DNA from: Waddliaceae bacterium | GTDB taxonomy: Bacteria; Chlamydiota; Chlamydiia; Chlamydiales; GCA-2709385 | Direction: 5' to 3' | Length of the DNA stretch: 19,387 nt | Assembly (NCBI GenBank): GCA_002709385.1 | Contig: PAQS01000043.1 | Span: 1-19,387 of the forward strand | In this document: in pieces, positions 3,090 through 13,496 of the stretch | Layout: every line of letters begins with the position of its first letter | Numbering within the stretch: the stretch's first letter is position 1 | The notes under the pieces: model-generated | Told to the model about the DNA's origin: nothing | The model's input: the letters and a program-made list of their open reading frames with translations, nothing else | Database searches by the model: none | Position numbers and translations under genes: made by a program

Positions 3090-4805
3090 TCAATTCTTCT
3101 TGCTGTCTATCTTTCGCTGCTCCCGCCGCGGCTTACGCGACGGCCCGTCAGGTGATTCAGATTTGCGTGACCGCTTCGGCCGCTTCCTGGCGCCCTTGTA
3201 GTCCATCACGATATTGCGGAGCCGTCGAAACACATCGCCCGTTCCCTCGGCCGAGGCCGCGTTGCCGCCCGGGACGAACTCGCCATAAGGCCGGTCGGGG
3301 AACTGCTTGAGTGACGCGGTGAGCTTCGCACGCATGTCTCTAAGCGTGGCTCTGTGCTTTGGACTTCCTGCCAGGTTGTCTTGGGCTTCGGGGTCCTTGC
3401 GCAGATCATAGAGTTGATCGGCACTGATGGCGTCGGGGTGTTTATCCCACGAACGTGAGACGCCGCCGCTGAGACCGAGGACCGATTTGATGGTGCGTTT
3501 TTCGCCGGCACGAATGCCGGCGAGTTGGTCCTGTGTGTAGCGCAGCGCGATGTAGCCGTAGTCTTTGGTCATCACGGCACGCGCGGCGCCCATCTCGCAA
3601 TAGACGTGGTCGCGCACAGCCTCTTGAGGCGACTTGAAAAGCGGCCTCAAGCTCACGCCGTCGTGGTGGTATCCCTTGGGAAGTTTCGCGTCTGCCAGCT
3701 CGAACCAGGTCGGCACGAAATCCGTGTTCTGGATCAGCTGATCGCAGACCACGCCCGCCTTCATGCCCGCTGGCCAGCGCATCAGGCATGGCACCTCGGC
3801 GCCCCGGAACTTCTGCAGCGACCCCTTGTTGTTCGAGCCATGGTCGGCGATGAACAGGACCACGGTGTTGTCGGCGATCTTCAATTCATCGAGCTTGTCC
3901 AGAATCATGCCCAGCGTGTCGTCCATCCACAGGTAGCCCGCTTCGTCCTCGCTCAACCCCGCCTTCTGGATACGTTGCATGACCGTCTTGCGCGTCGCGA
4001 ACGCCGGGTCGCGATCGACCATGCCCTCGCCGGTCACGCGCGGGTGTTCCAGCGACTTGTGCCAGCTCCTGTTCGGGCCGTGCAACAGTGTCGTCGCATA
4101 GTGCAGGTAAAACGGTTGATCCTTGTGCTGCTCGATGAACTCGACGGCCGCTTCGATCGTCCACTCGGGGTTGTGCATCTGGAACGGCGTTTTGGTGTTC
4201 GACCAGTAGATGTGCTTCGCCCAGGTGAAGCCGCGCTCCTTGACGAGTTCACGGTGACGCTTCTCGTTTTCGTTCTGCTTCCGATTGATCTCTTCGGAAT
4301 AAGCCACCCCCTTGGGGACGTCGTGCAGGCCGAGCTTCTTCAGCCGCTCCTTATCCTTCTCGTCCCCACCGACGTGGTATTTCCCGACAAACCCCGTCGC
4401 GTACCCGTTCTTCGCGAGGACGGCCCCGACGTTCATGTTGTCCTCTTCCAGCGCGACGTTAAACCCGGGCGAGGTCTGTGTGCCCCTGGGAAACAGTTCG
4501 GTGAACTCATGGGAGTAGGACGAACTGGCGCATCGACCGGTCAGGAATGTGTATCGCGACGGCGTGCAGACCGTGCTGGTGACGAAGGCGTTGTCGAAGC
4601 GCATACCCTCGCGCGCCAGCCGGTCGAGGTTTGGGGTAAGCACCTTACCGCCGTAGGCGCTGGTCTCTGGCTTGTCGTAGTCGTCGACGAGGAAAACGAT
4701 GATGTTAGGGCGCGGCGCCGCGGCGGCCTCTGGCTGGGTCAGCGCGGCAAAGGACAACACAGCCAGAGCGACGCTCGCGATCCGCATCAACAGCGTGTGA
4801 ATCAT
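3090..4805 (-). CDS. Secreted Cys-type sulfatase (arylsulfatase family S1)
   Basis: This 571-residue sulfatase should hydrolyse a sulfate ester, probably on a polysaccharide, outside the cytoplasm. An N-terminal signal peptide (about 1-30, ending AAAA) precedes the fold. The metal-binding Asp pair is D41-D42 in NIIVFLVDDYD. The formylglycine motif is canonical, C80-T-P-S-R84, followed by YTFLTGR. Other family landmarks are GKYHVGG (a variant of GKWHLG), LLHGPNRSWH, ADHGSNNKG and KFRGAEVPCLMRWP. The last 35 or so residues are very basic (repeated K/R/S) and outside the usual fold; they may bind polyanions, but that is inference. The start codon overlaps the stop of the upstream fused esterase-sulfatase gene (ATGA, 4805-4802), so the two are probably translationally coupled. 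The local GC content, counted over 3721-3840, is 78/120, much higher than in the sulfatase half of the upstream gene. Substrate unknown. Confidence 0.95.
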   Translation of the reverse strand: MIHTLLMRIASVALAVLSFAALTQPEAAAAPRPNIIVFLVDDYDKPETSAYGGKVLTPNLDRLAREGMRFDNAFVTSTVCTPSRYTFLTGRCASSSYSHEFTELFPRGTQTSPGFNVALEEDNMNVGAVLAKNGYATGFVGKYHVGGDEKDKERLKKLGLHDVPKGVAYSEEINRKQNENEKRHRELVKERGFTWAKHIYWSNTKTPFQMHNPEWTIEAAVEFIEQHKDQPFYLHYATTLLHGPNRSWHKSLEHPRVTGEGMVDRDPAFATRKTVMQRIQKAGLSEDEAGYLWMDDTLGMILDKLDELKIADNTVVLFIADHGSNNKGSLQKFRGAEVPCLMRWPAGMKAGVVCDQLIQNTDFVPTWFELADAKLPKGYHHDGVSLRPLFKSPQEAVRDHVYCEMGAARAVMTKDYGYIALRYTQDQLAGIRAGEKRTIKSVLGLSGGVSRSWDKHPDAISADQLYDLRKDPEAQDNLAGSPKHRATLRDMRAKLTASLKQFPDRPYGEFVPGGNAASAEGTGDVFRRLRNIVMDYKGARKRPKRSRKSESPDGPSRKPRREQRKIDSKKN

Positions 4806-6940
4806 CGTCTCAAGGCTTCCTTTTGATCTTCGTTAATCATTCCTGGGGTAACTGTTTCCCACCATCTGTCATATGCCTTCCTCAGGGTTTCTACAATTTG
4901 AGGATGCTCAACGATAACGTTTTTTGTTTCGCCGGGGTCCGTGCTGAGGTCGTAAAGCTCCTCGTTATTCACCAGCGTGAATCGTTTGTTCTGGATGGAA
5001 ACTCTGGCGTGTTTCGATTGGGCGGCCTGACCCTGTTTCCAGGCACCAACGTGGTGAACCAAATGCCGGTCGTCGTCCCAATCGGCCGCGGGGTTCTTGA
5101 TCAGGGGAACCAGACTGCGCCCCTCGACCTGTTTCTTGATCTGCTCGGTCAAAGGAGCACCGGTCATTTCCAGAAGGGTCGGCATGATGTCCATCTGGCT
5201 TGTCAGCGCTGCGCTTTCTGAACCACCCTTAATACCGCCGCCCGGCCATCTGAAGAAAGCAGGCACCCGGGTTCCGCCCTGATACGGTTGCCCCTTGCCT
5301 TTCTTCATCCCTGCATTGTGTATTTGTGCGGTTCCCGAAGCGCCATTGTCACTCGCTATGAAGATGAACAAGGTCTCATCAGCGATCCCCCACTTTTCGA
5401 GTTGCCTAATCATCTCGCCGATGCGCCTGTCAATGTTTTCAACCTCCCAATAGATCTTCGCAATCTGTACTGTCATTTCCGGATGGGTACCAAGAAATTT
5501 TTTGTAATCTTCATTCGGCATATCACTCGAATCTTCTTTGAAAGGGCCGTGGGGTGATTTGGGTGGGAGATAAACGAAGAAGGGTGTCTTTGCCTGCCGT
5601 TGAACATCGATCCATTCTGTCGCTTTTTTGAAAAATAGATCTGTAGGATATGTACCAGCCATTCTCTGCGATTTTCCATTGTGAGAAATGGTGGCTGCCA
5701 TTCTCGCGCCCTTTTCGTACATCCAGCACTCATCAAACCCACGATTCTCGGGACGGTAAGGCCCTTCCTTGCCCAAGTGCCACTTGCCAAAAATGCCAGT
5801 GGTATACCCGGCTTTTTTAAGGGCTTGTGGCAGAGTGATCGTATCCAGGCTCATGCGCTCACGCATAAGGATGGTATGGGTAACACCGCTCATAAATTCA
5901 TGGCGACCACCCATGAGTTGCGCACGGCTGGGAGAACATCTTGCGCTGCTGTGATACCGCGTGAAGAGCAAGCTTTGTTTCTTAAGGGCATCGACATTTG
6001 GGGTCTTGATGACAGGATTACCGAAACAGGAATGATTACCGTAACCCGAATCATCCGGCATAATAATGATGATGTTTGGCTTGGAGTCTTTTAAAGGTTT
6101 TGCTTCGACTCCTATGGCGTTCTTTTTCTTCTTCTCTTGGGTGTTCTCTTTCTTGTTTTTGTTCTTCTCGATTTCTTGGGGCGCTCGATCTCCGGGCCTG
6201 CCGTTTTCCGCGGGCTCCTTCCCGGTCACCAGCGCGTGGCCCTGGCGTGCAAAGCGTCGGCCGAGCGTGATGTAGCCTTCCGGCCTGTTGTAGTGAACGG
6301 CGTTGATGATCTTTCCGTCGACCTCTCTGTCGTTCAGATCATCGACGTCGACCCACGCGCCGCGAGCGTCTTCATCGGCAATCTCACGTTGTACTTTCCG
6401 TACTGCCACGCACGATGGTCTATCCAGAGCGTAATCCCCGATTCGGCCGATGACGATGTTCATGTCGGGGCGCTTTAAGTCGCGGCGCAGTTTGGAGATC
6501 AACAGCTTTAAAGCATCTTTGTATGCGGCATGCGCGCCGCCATTGGCATCGCGTTCACCCTGCATCCAGCAGAAGGTGACCGAAGTCAGCTTAGGGTGCT
6601 TCTTCAGCATCGCCTGATACTGATCCAGGATCGGCTGATAGAACTGGACTCCTTCGCCTTTCGTGATTCTTTGGATGCGTTTGGAATCCAGCCCCTTCTT
6701 CTTTGCGATATCTTCCCACTCCTTAACCCATCTGCATATCGGCTGGCCGCCCTTGGCCACCTTGATGTAAACGACCTTCTCGCCCTGGAACAGCTTGTTG
6801 GCCTCCGGCATGAAACCTGTTTTCGGATTCATGCCCGCCATGTTGGATTGTCCTGAGAGTATGAACAAATGAACGGGCCTGTCTTCTCCGAAGCCTGTTG
6901 AGGCTGTAAGGAGTAGTATTAGGGCAATTGCTTTTCTCAT
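4802..6940 (-). CDS. Fused SGNH-type acetylesterase (SASA family) and sulfatase
   Basis: One uninterrupted 712-residue frame carries two enzymes. A signal peptide (about 1-18) leads into a sialate-O-acetylesterase-like domain (about 22-240) with the nucleophile motif G30-Q-S32-N-M-A-G, W125-M-Q-G-E-R-D131, and a probable catalytic H216 in NAVHYNRPEGY. A charged Lys/Glu/Asn-rich linker follows (about 255-286). Then comes a complete sulfatase domain with D296-D297, C335-S-P-S-R339, FGKWHLGKEG, PPKSPHGPF, ASDNGASG and GGTRVPAFFRWPG. No hydrophobic signal lies between the domains, so one Sec leader would export both, arguing for a true fusion. Expected activities are removal of O-acetyl groups and sulfate esters from one glycan. 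Base composition changes near the junction: about 57% GC at 6301-6420 (68/120) and 43% at 5461-5700 (104/240). It overlaps both neighbours by 4 nt (ATGA). Domain identities are confident; joint substrate is inferred. Confidence 0.93.
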   Translation of the reverse strand: MRKAIALILLLTASTGFGEDRPVHLFILSGQSNMAGMNPKTGFMPEANKLFQGEKVVYIKVAKGGQPICRWVKEWEDIAKKKGLDSKRIQRITKGEGVQFYQPILDQYQAMLKKHPKLTSVTFCWMQGERDANGGAHAAYKDALKLLISKLRRDLKRPDMNIVIGRIGDYALDRPSCVAVRKVQREIADEDARGAWVDVDDLNDREVDGKIINAVHYNRPEGYITLGRRFARQGHALVTGKEPAENGRPGDRAPQEIEKNKNKKENTQEKKKKNAIGVEAKPLKDSKPNIIIIMPDDSGYGNHSCFGNPVIKTPNVDALKKQSLLFTRYHSSARCSPSRAQLMGGRHEFMSGVTHTILMRERMSLDTITLPQALKKAGYTTGIFGKWHLGKEGPYRPENRGFDECWMYEKGARMAATISHNGKSQRMAGTYPTDLFFKKATEWIDVQRQAKTPFFVYLPPKSPHGPFKEDSSDMPNEDYKKFLGTHPEMTVQIAKIYWEVENIDRRIGEMIRQLEKWGIADETLFIFIASDNGASGTAQIHNAGMKKGKGQPYQGGTRVPAFFRWPGGGIKGGSESAALTSQMDIMPTLLEMTGAPLTEQIKKQVEGRSLVPLIKNPAADWDDDRHLVHHVGAWKQGQAAQSKHARVSIQNKRFTLVNNEELYDLSTDPGETKNVIVEHPQIVETLRKAYDRWWETVTPGMINEDQKEALRR

Positions 6941-7233: not shown

Positions 7234-8520
7234 TTAAGCCTGCAGCTCCTTGACGACGCCCGTACTGTCGCCATGTCGTTCGGCGTTGATGTCGAGGCCC
7301 TGCAGTATCGTCAGCCACACATTGCACAGCGGCGTGTCCTTCGGCAGGACGAGGTGCTGGCCCAGCTTCAGGTTGGCTCCGCCGCCGGTGAGGATTGTCG
7401 GGCAATTGGTCAGGTAATGGATCGAGCTGATGTTCGAGCCGAAGGCCACGGCCGTGTGGTCGAAGAGGCTCGATCCGTCGGCTTCCTTCGTGGCCTTGAG
7501 CTTGTCGATCAGGCGGGCAAGCAGTTCGCTGTGGGTCTTGTCACGCACCTTCGAAGCCTCCATGCGTTCGCCAGGTGAGTAATGGCTCACATTGTGGGCA
7601 CTGGGTTTGAGATCGAGACTTTGCAGCAGGCTCTGACCGGGCATGCGATAGCTCAGTGCGCGGGTGCTGTCCGTCTGCAGCGCGGCAACGATCAGATCCT
7701 GCATGATCTCGATCTCGGCCTTCCCCTTCAGGCCGGGTTCCGGTTCGTCGAGTGGAGCCTTCGCCTTGGGGACTTCGAGCCAGGCTTCTTCCTTCTTGAG
7801 ACGCGTCTCGATGTCACGGATACCCTGGAAGTATTCGTCGAGCTTGTCGTTATCGGTCTTGGTGAGACCGCGCTGCACGCGTCTGGCCTGGGTGAGGACT
7901 GCGTCCAGGACGCTGCGGTTTTCGGCGATGGCGGCCTGGCGTTGTTCCAGCGGCATGTCATCCGGCGAGAAGAGCTTGTGGAAAACCTGAACCGGGTCGT
8001 CCTGGCCGGCGACCGGTTTGCCGCGCTGATTCCATGCCAGCGAGAGCCCGGGACCGTGTCCTTCCAGAGTGGAGGCGTTGAGCTGGATCGAGGAGAAGCG
8101 AGTGTCCTGGCCCAGATGTCGCGCGACGACCTGGTCAGCCGAGATGCTGTTGGCCATGTTCTGACCGGGTACGGAATAGCGATTGGCCCCCGTGAGCCAG
8201 AAAGTGCTGCCCCAGTGAGCTTCGTTGGAGTACTGGTTCGCACAGCCCTGCACCACGGTGATATCGGACTGGTGACGGGACAGCGGGGAGAGCCCCTCGG
8301 AGAGTTCGTAGTCGCTGCCGGTGTGGCCCTGGTCAGGAAACCAGGTTTCTTTGGTCACGCCGAACCCAATGCTGAGAAAGACGCATCGTTTGGGCGGCTT
8401 CGCAGGCGATTTATCTGCGGCCGATGCGAAACGACGGAAACCAATGGAATCCAACGCGGGCAGCGCAATCAAGGCTCCGGTTCCACGAAGAAACCGGCGA
8501 CGATTGATTGGTGTGTTCAT
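7234..8520 (-). CDS. DUF1552 (HXXSHH) family exported protein, paralogue without an adjacent DUF1592 partner downstream
   Basis: This 428-residue protein has a twin-arginine leader (N-R-R-R-F-L-R-G followed by GALIALPAL), suggesting Tat export. It is a close paralogue of the protein encoded at 12201-13496: 45 of the first 60 residues are identical by my count, and both end in RHGDSTGVVKELQ plus one residue. The family signature reads H309-N-V-S312-H313-Y314, so the last histidine of HXXSHH is tyrosine, the same change as in its paralogue. Unlike the other two DUF1552 genes it is not followed by a DUF1592 cytochrome; downstream is the truncated sulfatase. Upstream lie a palindromic repeat and the EF-hand gene. 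Function unknown; it probably arose by local duplication. Confidence 0.93.
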   Translation of the reverse strand: MNTPINRRRFLRGTGALIALPALDSIGFRRFASAADKSPAKPPKRCVFLSIGFGVTKETWFPDQGHTGSDYELSEGLSPLSRHQSDITVVQGCANQYSNEAHWGSTFWLTGANRYSVPGQNMANSISADQVVARHLGQDTRFSSIQLNASTLEGHGPGLSLAWNQRGKPVAGQDDPVQVFHKLFSPDDMPLEQRQAAIAENRSVLDAVLTQARRVQRGLTKTDNDKLDEYFQGIRDIETRLKKEEAWLEVPKAKAPLDEPEPGLKGKAEIEIMQDLIVAALQTDSTRALSYRMPGQSLLQSLDLKPSAHNVSHYSPGERMEASKVRDKTHSELLARLIDKLKATKEADGSSLFDHTAVAFGSNISSIHYLTNCPTILTGGGANLKLGQHLVLPKDTPLCNVWLTILQGLDINAERHGDSTGVVKELQA

Positions 8521-8563: not shown

Positions 8564-8625
8564 AGGCAGAGGAATGAGGGCAAAGGAATGATTCCAACTT
8601 ATTCCTCTGCCCCATTCCTTTGCCT
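8564..8625. repeat. Palindromic repeat, intergenic copy 1
   Basis: The left arm (8564-8589) and right arm (8601-8625) are inverted copies that match apart from a few purine differences and one indel, around an 11-nt loop. Each arm is itself two tandem units of the form GGCARAGGAAT. A second copy with the same arms is at 12104-12188. This copy lies between the EF-hand gene and the second DUF1552 gene. It has no run of T after the stem in the direction of transcription, so a simple intrinsic terminator is unlikely; it looks like a REP or MITE-like dispersed repeat. Confidence 0.85.
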
Positions 8626-8667: not shown

Positions 8668-9408
8668 TCATCTTCGCAGGATGGAGTCGATGAAGCTGGC
8701 CAAATCCGAAACCGAGAGGTCACCGGAGCGGTCTTTGTCTGCCCTCTTAAAGAAGGTATCCAAGTGAGCCGTGGAGCCAAGGAACTTCACGAATTCCTGC
8801 TTGCTGAGGACACCATCGGAGTTGGCATCGGATTCCGCGTGCCATTCGGCGGGAGTTTTGCGGGAGATCCTATACCACTTGATGCCCTCGAGCTTCGGTG
8901 CGAATTCCTTCAGATTGAGTGTGCCTGACTTGTCTTTGTCCGCTTTTCCAAATCCGACTGGGCCGTGCTTGGGTGAACGGTAAATGGCGGTCGCGTATTC
9001 GACATAGGAAAGCTCGCCGTCGCCATTGCGGTCAGCCCACTTGTGCAACTCTGCAGGTGTCATGGTGAGCATTTTGGCGCTGGGCTTGAGATTCTCCTTG
9101 GGGATGGGAAGCGTGACCCAGAGCTGATGGCATTGCCCCTTGGAATCGACGCCGGCGCGAAAGAAAAAGCCCGCTTTGATTTCCTTTTTCGCCTTTAGGA
9201 AGCTGACGTAGGTGATCTTGGTTTTGTCGTTGAGCATGAACGTCCGGTTTTTCCTGCGGTAAGTGATGGTGATCTTGTTTCCGTCGACGGCTTCAATAAT
9301 TCCGTGAAGAGTCTGAATGCCACGCGATTCTTTCTTCTGAGCGGCAACTCCGCTGGCGGCAACGCTCAGGCAGATAGCGACGATGATGAATGTCCGGCTG
9401 GTTTTCAT
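8668..9408 (-). CDS. Secreted four EF-hand calcium-binding protein
   Basis: This 246-residue protein has a signal peptide (about 1-23, ending GVAAQ). A small beta-rich N-terminal part (about 30-105) includes GIIEAVDGNKITITY, which resembles a short OB-like or nucleic-acid-free structural module but is not recognised. Four EF-hand loops follow: D126-RNGDGELSYVE, D157-KDKSGTLNLKE, D194-ANSDGVLSKQE and D224-KDRSGDLSVSD, each with acidic or Asn residues at the usual ligand positions. EF-hand proteins of this type are common in planctomycete secretomes, but their partners are unknown. The neighbouring sulfatases are calcium-dependent as a family; a shared calcium theme is only inference. It sits 60 nt downstream of the DUF1592 gene and is probably in the same transcript. 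The start at 9408 puts the signal peptide at the N-terminus; no clear ribosome-binding site is visible. Confidence 0.92.
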   Translation of the reverse strand: MKTSRTFIIVAICLSVAASGVAAQKKESRGIQTLHGIIEAVDGNKITITYRRKNRTFMLNDKTKITYVSFLKAKKEIKAGFFFRAGVDSKGQCHQLWVTLPIPKENLKPSAKMLTMTPAELHKWADRNGDGELSYVEYATAIYRSPKHGPVGFGKADKDKSGTLNLKEFAPKLEGIKWYRISRKTPAEWHAESDANSDGVLSKQEFVKFLGSTAHLDTFFKRADKDRSGDLSVSDLASFIDSILRR

Positions 9409-9468: not shown

Positions 9469-12204
9469 TTACTTCGATTGAAACGGCTTGCTTTGGACGA
9501 GGGCGTGGATGAATTCACGGACGGCGTATTGCTTGTCTTTTGACGCGACCAGGATTTCGTTGGCCAGATCTTCATCGGTAAATCCGAACGGACGACCGAG
9601 ACCGTACTCGATCAGGGCTTCTGTGAAGCCACGGGCGAAATCATCCTTATGGTTGGTGGCAATCAACTCACGCAGTTCAAAGAAATCGGCAAATGCCGGA
9701 CCGTTGTGGAAAGCGCCGGACGCATCAATGGGGGTACCGGTTCTGCTGGGCACCATCTGGCCTTTTCTGTTCTTGGTGTATCGGCGTTCGTTGCTGCGCC
9801 ATTTGCCGGCGGCGTCGAAGTTTTCGAGGCCAAAGCCAATCGGATCAATCTTGCGATGGCAACTGGCGCACTGCGCTTCTTCCATGTGCGTAGCGAGTTT
9901 TTCCCGCTTGGTGAGGGGCTTGCCGTCCAGTCGCGAAAGCTGTGGCACATTGGCCGGAGCCGGGGGCGGTGGCGAGTGCAGTAGATGGCGCAGCACCCAG
10001 GCCCCGCGTTCGACGGGGCTGCTCTCTTTGCCGTCGCTACCCATCGCATTAATCGCGGCCATTCCCAGGAATCCACCGCGCGGAGAATCTTCAGGCACGG
10101 TGACTTTCCGATAGCGATCACCTGCGACGCCTTTCAAACCGTAGTGTGTGGCCAGAAAACCATTGACGATGACATAATCGCTCTTGAGTAAATGCTGCAG
10201 CTGTCCCTGGTCCCTGGATCGCAAGAGATGCAGGATGGATTGGTAGACCTCCTCGCGGGCTGCCGCGCGCATGCTTTCGTCGAACTCGCGATGTTCTTTG
10301 GCATCAAACTGGAAGAAGTCCAGACGCTTCATGTCCAGCCACTGATGGGCTAGACCGGAAACGAAGTGGTGCGCTTTCGGGTTCTGAATCAAACGATCCA
10401 CTTGTCTCAGCAAGTTGACAGGATCACGCAGTTGCTTCTTCTCTGAGAGCGCAATCAGTTGGGCATCCGGTGGGGAACTCCAGAGGAAATACGACAGTCG
10501 CACGGCCAGTTCGAGATCGTCCAATGCACGAGGAGCGCCGTCCTGCCCGGGCTCCTTCATGAAGAGGAACCGTGGCGATGCCAGAATCATGCTCAGCGGT
10601 TTTCGAATCGCCACGTCGAACTTCTTGTCGATCACCAGTCTGTTTTTGAAAACGGCCACCAGGGAATCGATGAACTCGGGGTTGGGTTCACGGGAGCGAA
10701 ACGCTTTGACGGCAAACTGTTGGAGAATGTTCCTGGCCCGTTTCGTTTTGTCGCGATCCGGGCGGTTCGCATCAAAGATCTGATCGAGCGGACTGGGATC
10801 CCCTTGCGGCAACGGGCCTTCGATCTCAACCCAATCGACCCAAATCGAAGGCTCATGGCCATAACCGTTGCGATTCATCGCCGGGTAAAAGTAATGCTTC
10901 CTCAAAGGCCCCCATGCCGGCTGACGTTCCCTGATCGCAAATTGTCGTGTTGTATCCTTACCCACCGCTACCTGGGTCTCGATCAATTCCGGATTGGCCG
11001 GACTGCCGGTAACGTGCAGCGCCTGCAGGGGAAAACCTTCGAACTGTCCTCTGGCAAGTCCCTTGACGGCGGGGTAGCCTAGTTCGAGGAAGTGACGAAA
11101 AGCCGGCGACTTTTTGGTGACCCCCGCCTTGATTCGCAACGTGTACGTTCCGACGGGCATGTCGCCCGGCGGCGCTATTACGATCTTGGCGGAACCCATG
11201 GTCAGCTGAAGCCAAGTGCCTGTCTCACTATGAGGAAGACCGGCGTAGTGCTTGTCGTAGGGAGCCGCTTTGGGAAAAAAATTCGCTGCACTAAAATAAG
11301 TTTTGAATCCATGATCCTTCGGGTCGGGGGCTCCTTTCAGCTTTTTAAGGTGACGGTCAATTTTACGGTAGAGCTGCAGGCGGTTACCCTTTGTGCCCAT
11401 CTGGGCTTCAAAGTTTTTGTTCTCTGGTAAGGCGAGAGCTTTCTCCAGTTCCGCATCCAGCGCCTTATGGCGTTTCAGGTATTCCTCGTTTCGCTCGACT
11501 CTCTGTCTCAAGGCGACGTTGAGCGTTTTTTCCGGCTCCACGCGATAGACAAAAGGCTTTGCCGTTCGAGCCGCTCGCCGCTCATAGAACTCCTCGATGG
11601 CGTGGTGCCCGAGTTTCAGATACTGCTCGAACTTGTCGCTGGAGAGAAAAAGCGAAGCTCCCACCGTATCAAAGTCGCCGGAGTCGCCATCATCGGGAAG
11701 GAGTTCCTTACCGAGTCGCACCCCCAGCAAGCTCTCGATACTGTTCTGGTAGTCGCGTTTGTTAAGCCGTCGCATGGTGATCTTGCCACCCGAGTCGGAC
11801 AGCACTTTGCGGGCGGTGACCATCGTGAGCGACAGATCATCCAGAAAATCCGCTTTCTCTTTGTTGACAGGCTGTTTGGAATCTTTCGGCGGCATCTCTC
11901 CGGAATTCAGTACACCTAGCACCTTCTGCCAGAGTTCCGCCTGCTCGATGGTGGTGATGCGGAAGGGCAGTGTTTCGAGATCGACTTTGCCTTCCTGCGT
12001 CTCAGAGTCGTGGCAATCGAGGCAGTGTGCTTTGAAGAAGGCCCGGTGCTTTTCCGGAAGTCGTGCTTCGGGCGGCGCGGCGAAGGTTGTGGAAACAGTG
12101 GCGATCAGGCAGAGGAATAGGGGCAAAGGAATAAAGCTCCTGTCCCCAAACATGCATGAATTCCTCTGCCCCCATTCCTTTGCCTGATTGAGTATTGAAT
12201 TCAT
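9469..12204 (-). CDS. DUF1592-family secreted cytochrome-like protein with two CxxCH motifs
   Basis: This full-length 911-residue protein has the family order. A haem motif C61-L-D-C-H65 comes first, then DUF1587-like (about 142-200, RRLNKRDYQNSIESLLGV). A beta-rich, possibly carbohydrate-binding middle follows (about 340-475), then DUF1595 (about 488-550), DUF1592 (about 558-685, VRLSYFLWSSPPDAQLI) and DUF1588 (about 705-800). A second motif C779-A-S-C-H783 is followed by RKIDPIGFGLENFD, and DUF1585 (about 835-911) closes the protein. Two c-type haems are possible. Its ATG overlaps the stop of the upstream DUF1552 gene (ATGA, 12204-12201). The N-terminus is odd: residues 6-34 are encoded by a palindromic repeat, which supplies the leader's hydrophobic core (IPLPLFLCL). 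An ATG within the repeat loop at 12153 is an alternative start giving a more standard leader. Function of the family is unproven. Confidence 0.93.
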   Translation of the reverse strand: MNSILNQAKEWGQRNSCMFGDRSFIPLPLFLCLIATVSTTFAAPPEARLPEKHRAFFKAHCLDCHDSETQEGKVDLETLPFRITTIEQAELWQKVLGVLNSGEMPPKDSKQPVNKEKADFLDDLSLTMVTARKVLSDSGGKITMRRLNKRDYQNSIESLLGVRLGKELLPDDGDSGDFDTVGASLFLSSDKFEQYLKLGHHAIEEFYERRAARTAKPFVYRVEPEKTLNVALRQRVERNEEYLKRHKALDAELEKALALPENKNFEAQMGTKGNRLQLYRKIDRHLKKLKGAPDPKDHGFKTYFSAANFFPKAAPYDKHYAGLPHSETGTWLQLTMGSAKIVIAPPGDMPVGTYTLRIKAGVTKKSPAFRHFLELGYPAVKGLARGQFEGFPLQALHVTGSPANPELIETQVAVGKDTTRQFAIRERQPAWGPLRKHYFYPAMNRNGYGHEPSIWVDWVEIEGPLPQGDPSPLDQIFDANRPDRDKTKRARNILQQFAVKAFRSREPNPEFIDSLVAVFKNRLVIDKKFDVAIRKPLSMILASPRFLFMKEPGQDGAPRALDDLELAVRLSYFLWSSPPDAQLIALSEKKQLRDPVNLLRQVDRLIQNPKAHHFVSGLAHQWLDMKRLDFFQFDAKEHREFDESMRAAAREEVYQSILHLLRSRDQGQLQHLLKSDYVIVNGFLATHYGLKGVAGDRYRKVTVPEDSPRGGFLGMAAINAMGSDGKESSPVERGAWVLRHLLHSPPPPAPANVPQLSRLDGKPLTKREKLATHMEEAQCASCHRKIDPIGFGLENFDAAGKWRSNERRYTKNRKGQMVPSRTGTPIDASGAFHNGPAFADFFELRELIATNHKDDFARGFTEALIEYGLGRPFGFTDEDLANEILVASKDKQYAVREFIHALVQSKPFQSK
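12104..12188. repeat. Palindromic repeat, copy 2, lying inside a coding region
   Basis: The arms are 12104-12132 and 12160-12188, 29 nt each, inverted with only a few purine mismatches, around a 27-nt loop. The core arm AGGCAGAGGAAT followed by GGGGCAAAGGAAT matches copy 1 at 8564-8625. Here the repeat lies within the first 34 codons of the DUF1592 gene and is read through in frame. The flanks extend the palindrome by three bases (ATC/GAT), which copy 1 lacks. Confidence 0.85.
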
Positions 12205-13496
12205 CCCTGCAGCTCCTTCACGACGCCGGTGCTGTCGCCGTGACGATCGACGTTAACACCGACACCCTGCAACATAGTCAGCCAGACATTGTTCAGCGGT
12301 GTGCCTTCATTGAGGACAAGGTTCTGCCCCAGTTTAAGATTGGCTCCCCTGCCGGTGATCAGCGTGGGCGGGTTTTCGAGATAATGAATGGAGCGAATGT
12401 TGGAACCAAAGGCCAAAGCGACATGATCAAAGAGCCTGCTGCCATCGGCTTCCCTGGTGGCTTTTAACTGATCGATCAATCCGGCCAACAATTCGCTGTG
12501 CGCCTTGTCCCTCGTCTTCGAAGATTTTTCCGTGACTGCACCGGGGCGATAATGACTCACGTTGTGAGCGTTACCGTTCAGCCCGAGGCTCCTCAGCAGA
12601 CGTGACCCGGGCTCGCGGTAGGTAATGACCCGCGTGTTGTCCGTCTGCAAGGCAGCGACCATGAGCTTGTACATCATCTCGATTTCGCTGCGCCCTACCA
12701 AAACGTTATCCGGTTCTTCAAGCGGAGCTTTAGATTTAGGCACATCCATCCATTTTTCCGCTTTGCTCAGCCGAGTTTCGATGTCACGGATACTTTGGAA
12801 ATACTCGTCCAGCTTGTCAGTATCATTCTTCGTCAACCCGCGCTGCATGTCCTTCGCTTCGATGAGCACGGAATCCAGGACACTGCGTTCTTCGGCCAGC
12901 ATTGCTCGACGCTGTGCGAGAGGTATGTCATCTGCCCCAAAGAGTTTGAGGTAGGTTTCCAACAGGGAGTTCCACGCCGAAAGAGGCTTCCCCCGTTGGT
13001 CCCAGGCTAGGGAAGTTCCGGGGCCATGCCCGTTCCTGTCGTCAGCGTCCGTGCCCAGTTGGATTGAGGTGAAGCGGGTATGCTCACCAAACTGGGCGGC
13101 GGCAACCTGATCGGCGGAGATAGTGTTGGAAAAGGACTGGCCGGGAGTGCCGTATTGATTCGCTCCCGTCAGCCAATAGGTGCTTCCCCAGTGTGCCTGG
13201 CGACTGAAGTGATGCTTACATCCCTGGACGATCGTGAAATCGCTTTTATGACGGGCCAGTGGCTTCAACCCCTCGGGCAGCTTGTAGCCCACTCCTTTGT
13301 CGTTGATGTCGGGAAACCAGGTTTCAGAGGTGACACCATAGCCAATGCCCAGAAAGATTATTCTTTTGGGCGGCTTTGCGGGTGTTATATCCGCAGCCGA
13401 AGTGAAGCGGCGAAAACCGATCGATTCCAACGCCGGCAGCGCGATCAGCGCCCCCGCTCCACGAAGAAGGTGGCGGCGGTTGAATGGTGATTTCAT
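12201..13496 (-). CDS. DUF1552 (HXXSHH) family exported protein, paired with DUF1592
   Basis: This 431-residue protein starts with a twin-arginine-like leader (N-R-R-H-L-L-R-G, then GALIALPAL). The signature is H311-N-V-S314-H315-Y316, with tyrosine at the last position of HXXSHH. Other conserved stretches are AHWGSTYWLTGANQYG, ISADQVAA, NGHGPGTSLAW and FDHVALAFGSN. It is closely related to the protein at 7234-8520 and more distant from that at 1826-3049. Its stop codon overlaps the ATG of the DUF1592 cytochrome gene by 4 nt, so the two products are probably made together and may form a complex. The gene begins 24 nt after the upstream sulfatase-like gene ends. Biochemical role unknown. Confidence 0.94.
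   Translation of the reverse strand: MKSPFNRRHLLRGAGALIALPALESIGFRRFTSAADITPAKPPKRIIFLGIGYGVTSETWFPDINDKGVGYKLPEGLKPLARHKSDFTIVQGCKHHFSRQAHWGSTYWLTGANQYGTPGQSFSNTISADQVAAAQFGEHTRFTSIQLGTDADDRNGHGPGTSLAWDQRGKPLSAWNSLLETYLKLFGADDIPLAQRRAMLAEERSVLDSVLIEAKDMQRGLTKNDTDKLDEYFQSIRDIETRLSKAEKWMDVPKSKAPLEEPDNVLVGRSEIEMMYKLMVAALQTDNTRVITYREPGSRLLRSLGLNGNAHNVSHYRPGAVTEKSSKTRDKAHSELLAGLIDQLKATREADGSRLFDHVALAFGSNIRSIHYLENPPTLITGRGANLKLGQNLVLNEGTPLNNVWLTMLQGVGVNVDRHGDSTGVVKELQG

Follow-up and report, generated by a model that had tools for sequence, protein, structure and literature searches.

How does a palindromic repeat come to encode part of an export signal, and do such repeats serve as a general source of export signals? 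These questions are raised by contig PAQS01000043.1 of assembly GCA_002709385.1, filed as a Waddliaceae bacterium; the contig (C43, 19,387 bp of a 3.15-Mb assembly) was analyzed whole and is called the window here. In it, a palindrome built of GGCARAGGAAT units lies in frame near the beginning of a gene for a 911-amino-acid protein (9469 to 12204, minus strand; identified by its open reading frame and Pfam), with the domains PSCyt1, DUF1587, DUF1595, DUF1592, DUF1588, and DUF1585, referred to below as the DUF1592 gene. We conclude that a dispersed, normally intergenic palindromic element very probably inserted, in frame, within the part of this gene that codes for the signal peptide and was tolerated there. 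Read from the sequence, the repeat now appears to encode most of the hydrophobic core of the putative export signal of an exported cytochrome-like protein. The observation is thus real and largely explained, while the general claim of an initial annotation of this DNA, that such repeats supply export signals, is not supported.

Two palindromes in the window

Each of the two palindromes consists of four exact GGCARAGGAAT units, arranged as two tandem units per arm. The core of the leader copy (12108 to 12184, minus strand, codons 7 to 33, as delimited by unit count, folding, and in-frame translation) has units at 12108-12118(+), 12122-12132(+), 12160-12170(-), and 12174-12184(-); with a 4-nt extension (ATCAGGC...GCCTGAT) the full palindrome, defined by sequence reading and RNA folding, spans 12104 to 12188. 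The second copy (8565 to 8624), with units at 8565-8575(+), 8579-8589(+), 8601-8611(-), and 8614-8624(-), lies between a DUF1552 gene (7234 to 8520) and an EF-hand gene (8668 to 9408). The initial annotation was correct in describing one palindrome both in an intergenic region and, in frame, within codons 6 to 34 of the DUF1592 gene.

At up to one mismatch, GGCARAGGAAT occurs nine times in the window against 0.79 expected, a count reached by none of 200 shuffles, and eight of the nine are exact, every one of them within the two palindromes. Folding of the single-stranded DNA gave z scores of -4.3/-5.2 and -6.3/-6.0 for the two strands of each palindrome, equaled by 0 of 200 shuffles.

Probable insertion into an existing leader

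The DUF1592 gene follows a DUF1552 gene (12201 to 13496, minus strand; assigned by its reading frame, Pfam, and relatives) whose TGA stop overlaps the DUF1592 ATG in an ATGA. This junction was compared with 11 DUF1552-DUF1592 pairs from genomes G253 and G359. All 11 show an overlap of the DUF1552 stop with the DUF1592 start (ATGA or GTGA) and an AAGGAG-like site ahead of it, and the C terminus of the DUF1552 protein, ...KELQA or similar in the relatives, reads ...VVKELQG in the window. By this comparison, the ATG at 12202 to 12204 (minus strand) within the conserved overlap is the probable ancestral start, and the AAGGAG at 12213 to 12218 (minus strand), resembling a Shine-Dalgarno sequence, is kept at the equivalent place in relatives.

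The spacing from start to the CxxCH heme motif is 34 to 37 residues in the 11 relatives versus 60 in the window, a net gain of 23 to 26 codons that agrees with a single 77-nt element. A scan of 16 homologue loci found no GGCARAGGAAT unit. A maximum-likelihood tree placed the window protein with three short-leader proteins of the comparison set (support, 100/100), and planctomycete orthologues (54 to 60% identity) likewise have short leaders and the same mature start, for example, MTRFIITTCIAFCSLSSFAQA followed by APPEARLPEKHRAFFKAHCLDCH. Because the relatives share the junction, have shorter leaders, and differ by a gain that fits one element, insertion into a preexisting DUF1592 leader is, on comparative sequence evidence, well supported. 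The suggestion that the repeat had landed in a secretion signal is thereby upheld, given the unit-free relatives with shorter leaders at the same ATGA junction, and the alternative that orthologues would share these N-terminal residues fails, since the residues are absent from them.

Both comparison genomes are rich in such genes: G253 (C1, about 2.12 to 2.25 Mb) and G359 (C12) each have at least seven strong DUF1592 homologues, mostly in one-contig clusters, and most of those examined sit directly after a DUF1552 gene.

Translation of the leader

In the direction of the gene, the leader is read first through the near, purine-rich arm (GGCAAAGGAATGGGGGCAGAGGAAT; 12160 to 12184, minus strand), which by translation and hydropathy gives a polar and basic part, QAKEWGQRNS; then come the loop, CMFGDRSF, the far, pyrimidine-rich arm (12106 to 12132, minus strand), which gives the hydrophobic core, and the native residues IATVSTTFA. 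The core, IPLPLFLCL, comprises codons 25 to 33 of the 911-codon frame, as the initial annotation had stated; its assignment to the left arm holds on the plus strand, while in gene direction this is the distal arm. The hydropathy peak of the leader is 2.63 in the window versus 2.09 to 2.45 in relatives, and an n-region, a hydrophobic core, and an A-x-A-like cleavage region can be seen ahead of the mature protein by inspection and hydropathy only. There is no ATG, GTG, or TTG between the element and CxxCH, so the element is necessarily translated if the DUF1592 protein is made, and a start past the repeat is not available.

As the initial annotation noted, an in-frame ATG lies in the hairpin loop (12151 to 12153, minus strand; seen in the sequence and by a gene caller), and the element may thus have supplied a new start, giving MFGDRSFIPLPLFLCLIATVSTTFA, a compact leader of 25 residues, with the upstream part now serving as 5' leader RNA. 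A gene caller based on codon usage picked this ATG, which is preceded at a distance of 8 nt by a purine-rich AGAGGA; however, the hairpin stem ties up this AGAGGA in base pairs, MFGDRSF carries a low net charge for an n-region, and at ATG 12204 the AAGGAG and the ATGA overlap conserved in relatives have been kept and lie mostly outside the main stem of the RNA. With these two conserved features retained, ATG 12204 is likely to be preferred as the start over ATG 12153, and the compact leader that had been proposed, although possible, ranks below the longer one. We regard a new start supplied by the element as doubtful, with perhaps a minor share of the probability.

Under the favored explanation, one copy of the element would have entered a DUF1592 gene, in frame and within its signal-peptide codons; the start of that gene overlapped the upstream DUF1552 stop, and translation would still begin at ATG 12204. 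The purine-rich arm would then provide a long polar n-region (NQAKEWGQRNS...DRSF), and IPLPLFLCL, together with the remaining native IATVSTTFA, would restore the hydrophobic core and the A-x-A-like cleavage region, so that export of the DUF1592 protein would go on.

Several points weigh against insertion as we describe it. The closest relatives have only about 60% protein identity and no empty site was found, so the breakpoints and the original leader are unseen; without the full 77 nt the leader would be rather short, at about 16 residues; and the choice of ATG 12153 by the gene caller runs counter to our placement of the start. No target-site duplication that would point to transposition as the route of insertion was found: flank matches averaged 1.08, versus 0.96 ± 0.27 in permuted pairings, and in 0 of 26 cases did they reach 5 nt or more. 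Finally, the expression and export of this leader are inferred from its sequence.

Coding properties of the arms

Seventy-one distinct elements were read in all six frames, with shuffled sequences and palindromes with shuffled purine arms as controls. Stop-free readings made up 80% for the elements, compared to 29% for shuffled sequences and 45% for the shuffled-purine-arm palindromes. Over all frames, the first eight residues had a mean charge of +1.27 and a hydropathy of -1.97, and the last eight had a charge of 0 and a hydropathy of +1.29. The charge and hydropathy pattern of the shuffled-purine-arm control was similar, indicating that the polar-basic and hydrophobic character comes from strand composition and not from selection on coding, and both orientations give this order because the reverse complement of the element is nearly identical to it. 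Since most frames are open, the count of reading frames passing through the element is uninformative.

These properties probably explain why the insertion was tolerated: leaders take almost any hydrophobic stretch, palindromes of this family have few stop codons, and any frame in either orientation yields polar-basic and then hydrophobic residues. We see the event as a tolerated accident, not as a programmed supply of export signals. A broader idea, that palindromes with polypurine and polypyrimidine arms are preadapted as signal peptides or N-terminal anchors, and that the tight operon junctions of this superphylum's exported proteins are then recurrent landing sites at which repeats replace or rebuild leaders, strikes us as unlikely.

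The contig and its host

The window contig has a G+C content of 56.0% versus 35 to 41% in 19 other sampled contigs of the assembly, and its tetranucleotide correlation with the mean of the other contigs is -0.17, compared to 0.77 to 0.99 for those contigs themselves. Neither the repeat nor a DUF1592 homologue was found in any other contig of the assembly or in 24 genomes of the same order, and a search of the assembly for 16S gave no match. The contig is misbinned; its gene content suggests a verrucomicrobial or planctomycete bacterium as its source. Because of this misbinning, the assembly holds only the two window copies, and the proposed search for further copies in the same genome is void. 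A misbinned contig can thus conceal the true host of a repeat family. Another contig of this assembly (L244; G000:C47:1-12000) has an odd tetranucleotide profile (r = 0.77) and is possibly foreign or mobile DNA. Elsewhere in the window, an open reading frame at 4802 to 6940 fuses a SASA-type sialic-acid-specific acetylesterase domain and a sulfatase domain (Pfam).

Inverted repeats may mislead assemblers, and a contig already misplaced in its bin invites the suspicion that the two palindromes joined unrelated DNA. Both flanks of the leader copy, however, belong to the operon of the relatives, with the DUF1552 protein ending in ...GDSTGVVKELQG before its stop and the mature DUF1592 protein beginning APPEARLPEKHRAFFKAHCLDCH; the two copies also differ in loop and spacing, and the reading frame is intact. 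An assembly artifact is extremely improbable.

The repeat family elsewhere

A collection of 84,980 species was scanned with a unit pair plus a facing unit as the query. At least 119 stretches matched, in Verrucomicrobiota (some filed as Akkermansia, Opitutaceae, or Pedosphaera) and Planctomycetaceae. Unit-pair matches on the two strands numbered 114 + 114 (228) in a 7.9-Mb verrucomicrobial metagenome-assembled genome, 65 + 59 (124) in another, and 70 + 77 (147) in a planctomycete one, which bears out the earlier description of the repeat as dispersed; fifteen other genomes had 0 to 15 per strand. In draws of 392 genomes of one phylum and 387 of the other, the repeat was found in the center genome alone. 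The family is rare and patchy in Verrucomicrobiota and Planctomycetota.

The ends of the element are mostly YA before GGC and TR after GCC (YA/GGC...GCC/TR). The element of the two richest genomes is longer and oriented, with degenerate extra units alongside, and in planctomycete G036 the unit also occurs in tandem arrays with a step of 14 to 15 nt. Contigs C23, C36, C37, C55, C58, and C66 of that genome (L272, L275, L277, L278, and L282) carry arrays together with satellites of longer period (about 126 and 290 nt), several of them at contig ends.

The prevalence of intergenic copies bears on whether the palindrome is retained for a control function in RNA or DNA, as a hairpin that damps or processes the operon message, with coding as a by-product. 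In the DUF1592 gene a very stable RNA hairpin (-62 kcal/mol for 141 nt; z = -4.7) stands right after the start codon, and the second window copy occupies the short gap preceding another DUF1552 gene of the same strand. Yet gene context is not fixed, with copies found between tandem, divergent, and convergent genes; the operon relatives do not have this palindrome, and Rfam gave no match for it. A control function of this kind is in our judgment rather improbable.

A source of export signals?

Genes around the copies were called with a home-made gene caller. Outside the window, 125 palindromic copies were placed in this way: a gene start is overlapped by one of them and gene ends by three, a single copy is internal to a gene, and not one falls in the first 120 nt of a called gene, the remainder sitting between genes or at the edges of contigs. 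This count may have passed over some leaders, because in 26 cases the gene frame is open back through the element, the called start lying 31 to 450 nt past it in all but two. The copy at a start (L064:3312-3372), in an uncultured member of the Verrucomicrobiales, forms the start and n-region (MNRQRNKRMNNKRTNSFAPIPLP...) of an exported sulfatase; this start and an upstream stop overlap.

A third leader has been lengthened by a palindrome unrelated to this family. A DUF1592 paralogue in G359 (L190) has 79 residues ahead of CxxCH, and its extra stretch holds, in frame, a 61-nt palindrome (TGTCCC...GGGGACA; z = -4.55) at about 178,650 to 178,715 of G359:C12 (L292:18648-18713). This palindrome lengthens the n-region and leaves the hydrophobic core untouched; it too is dispersed: the 786 kb sampled contain five other matches, all of which the same gene caller places between genes. 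That leaders of one gene family have taken up two unrelated palindromes suggests that leaders are permissive where operon junctions are tight, in a sample too small to give a rate.

The initial annotation foresaw such repeats as a source of new export signals. Two leaders carrying the GGCARAGGAAT element, a third lengthened by another palindrome, and an arm coding bias that fits an n-region and h-region speak for this view, but the 125 outside copies, nearly all of them intergenic, do not bear it out, and because the window case was picked for its leader position, one additional case is no excess. It is very unlikely that the repeats generally give rise to export signals and have been selected for such use.

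Comparison with known systems

The element resembles REP and REPIN sequences with their RAYT partners (PMC3733652, PMC2817692, PMC3116915) in being a short, intergenic palindrome that reaches high copy numbers in certain genomes. Direct reading found no GTAG/CGTC tag or its complement in either window copy. A RAYT partner was considered and is not supported: 30 Y1_Tnp loci of repeat-bearing genomes (G025, G026, G029, G036, and G040), with flanks to about 1.5 kb, were without units. By folding, the arms pair along their full length, as do the terminal inverted repeats of miniature inverted-repeat transposable elements, but no target-site duplication was found; we do not class the window repeat as a REP/RAYT or as a member of this classical transposable class. 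PARCELs (PMC2996958) are similar in that palindromic DNA encodes peptide segments and is patchily spread; they are, however, tandem 25-residue coding repeats within open reading frames, whereas the window element is dispersed and mostly noncoding.

Rickettsia palindromic elements (RPE; Ogata 2000, reviewed in PMC2229807) and the coding palindromes of Wolbachia are dispersed stem-loops found both between genes and in frame within conserved genes. The likeness, judged by features, lies in open frames, here in 80% of six-frame readings, and in a host protein left intact around the insert. Like the RPE, the present family occurs both between genes, where most of its copies lie, and in frame within genes, the in-frame copies of the window DUF1592 gene and L064 being joined by one in an NB-ARC/AAA-type ATPase gene, upstream of the ATPase domain (L144:1472-1525), and one in the DUF3418 region of hrpA (L090:2519-2569), within a stretch of HrpA (826 to 943) that phmmer left unaligned to solved HrpA chains. 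The latter two appear RPE-like from their sequences, with insertion unproven by orthologues. The systems differ in phylum, in the core of 60 to 77 nt built of tandem 11-mer units here versus 105 to 146 bp in RPE, in the mostly intergenic placement of the window family, and in the position of the window insert in a leader.

Among literature matches listed for the unit sequences, only unrelated-looking papers appeared; the case is a clear example of a kind of event already known, produced by a repeat family for which we found no description. The nearest precedent is the RU-2/YPAL element in YPO1552 of Yersinia (Delihas 2007, PMC2759123), which differs in host and in its greater length of 168 bp. 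The protein in that case, YPO1552, is a small and putative one; in the window, the original start is marked by a conserved operon junction. With its fixed upstream stop, Shine-Dalgarno sequence, and start, the window provides a well-anchored case of repeat DNA taking over the core of an export signal while leaving the gene unbroken, and it could be used for testing the tolerance of leaders and the way in which repeats become coding. The argument that a purine-armed palindrome reads as basic and then hydrophobic in any frame is a simple one, and it can be tested on further palindrome families, RU-2 and RPE among them.
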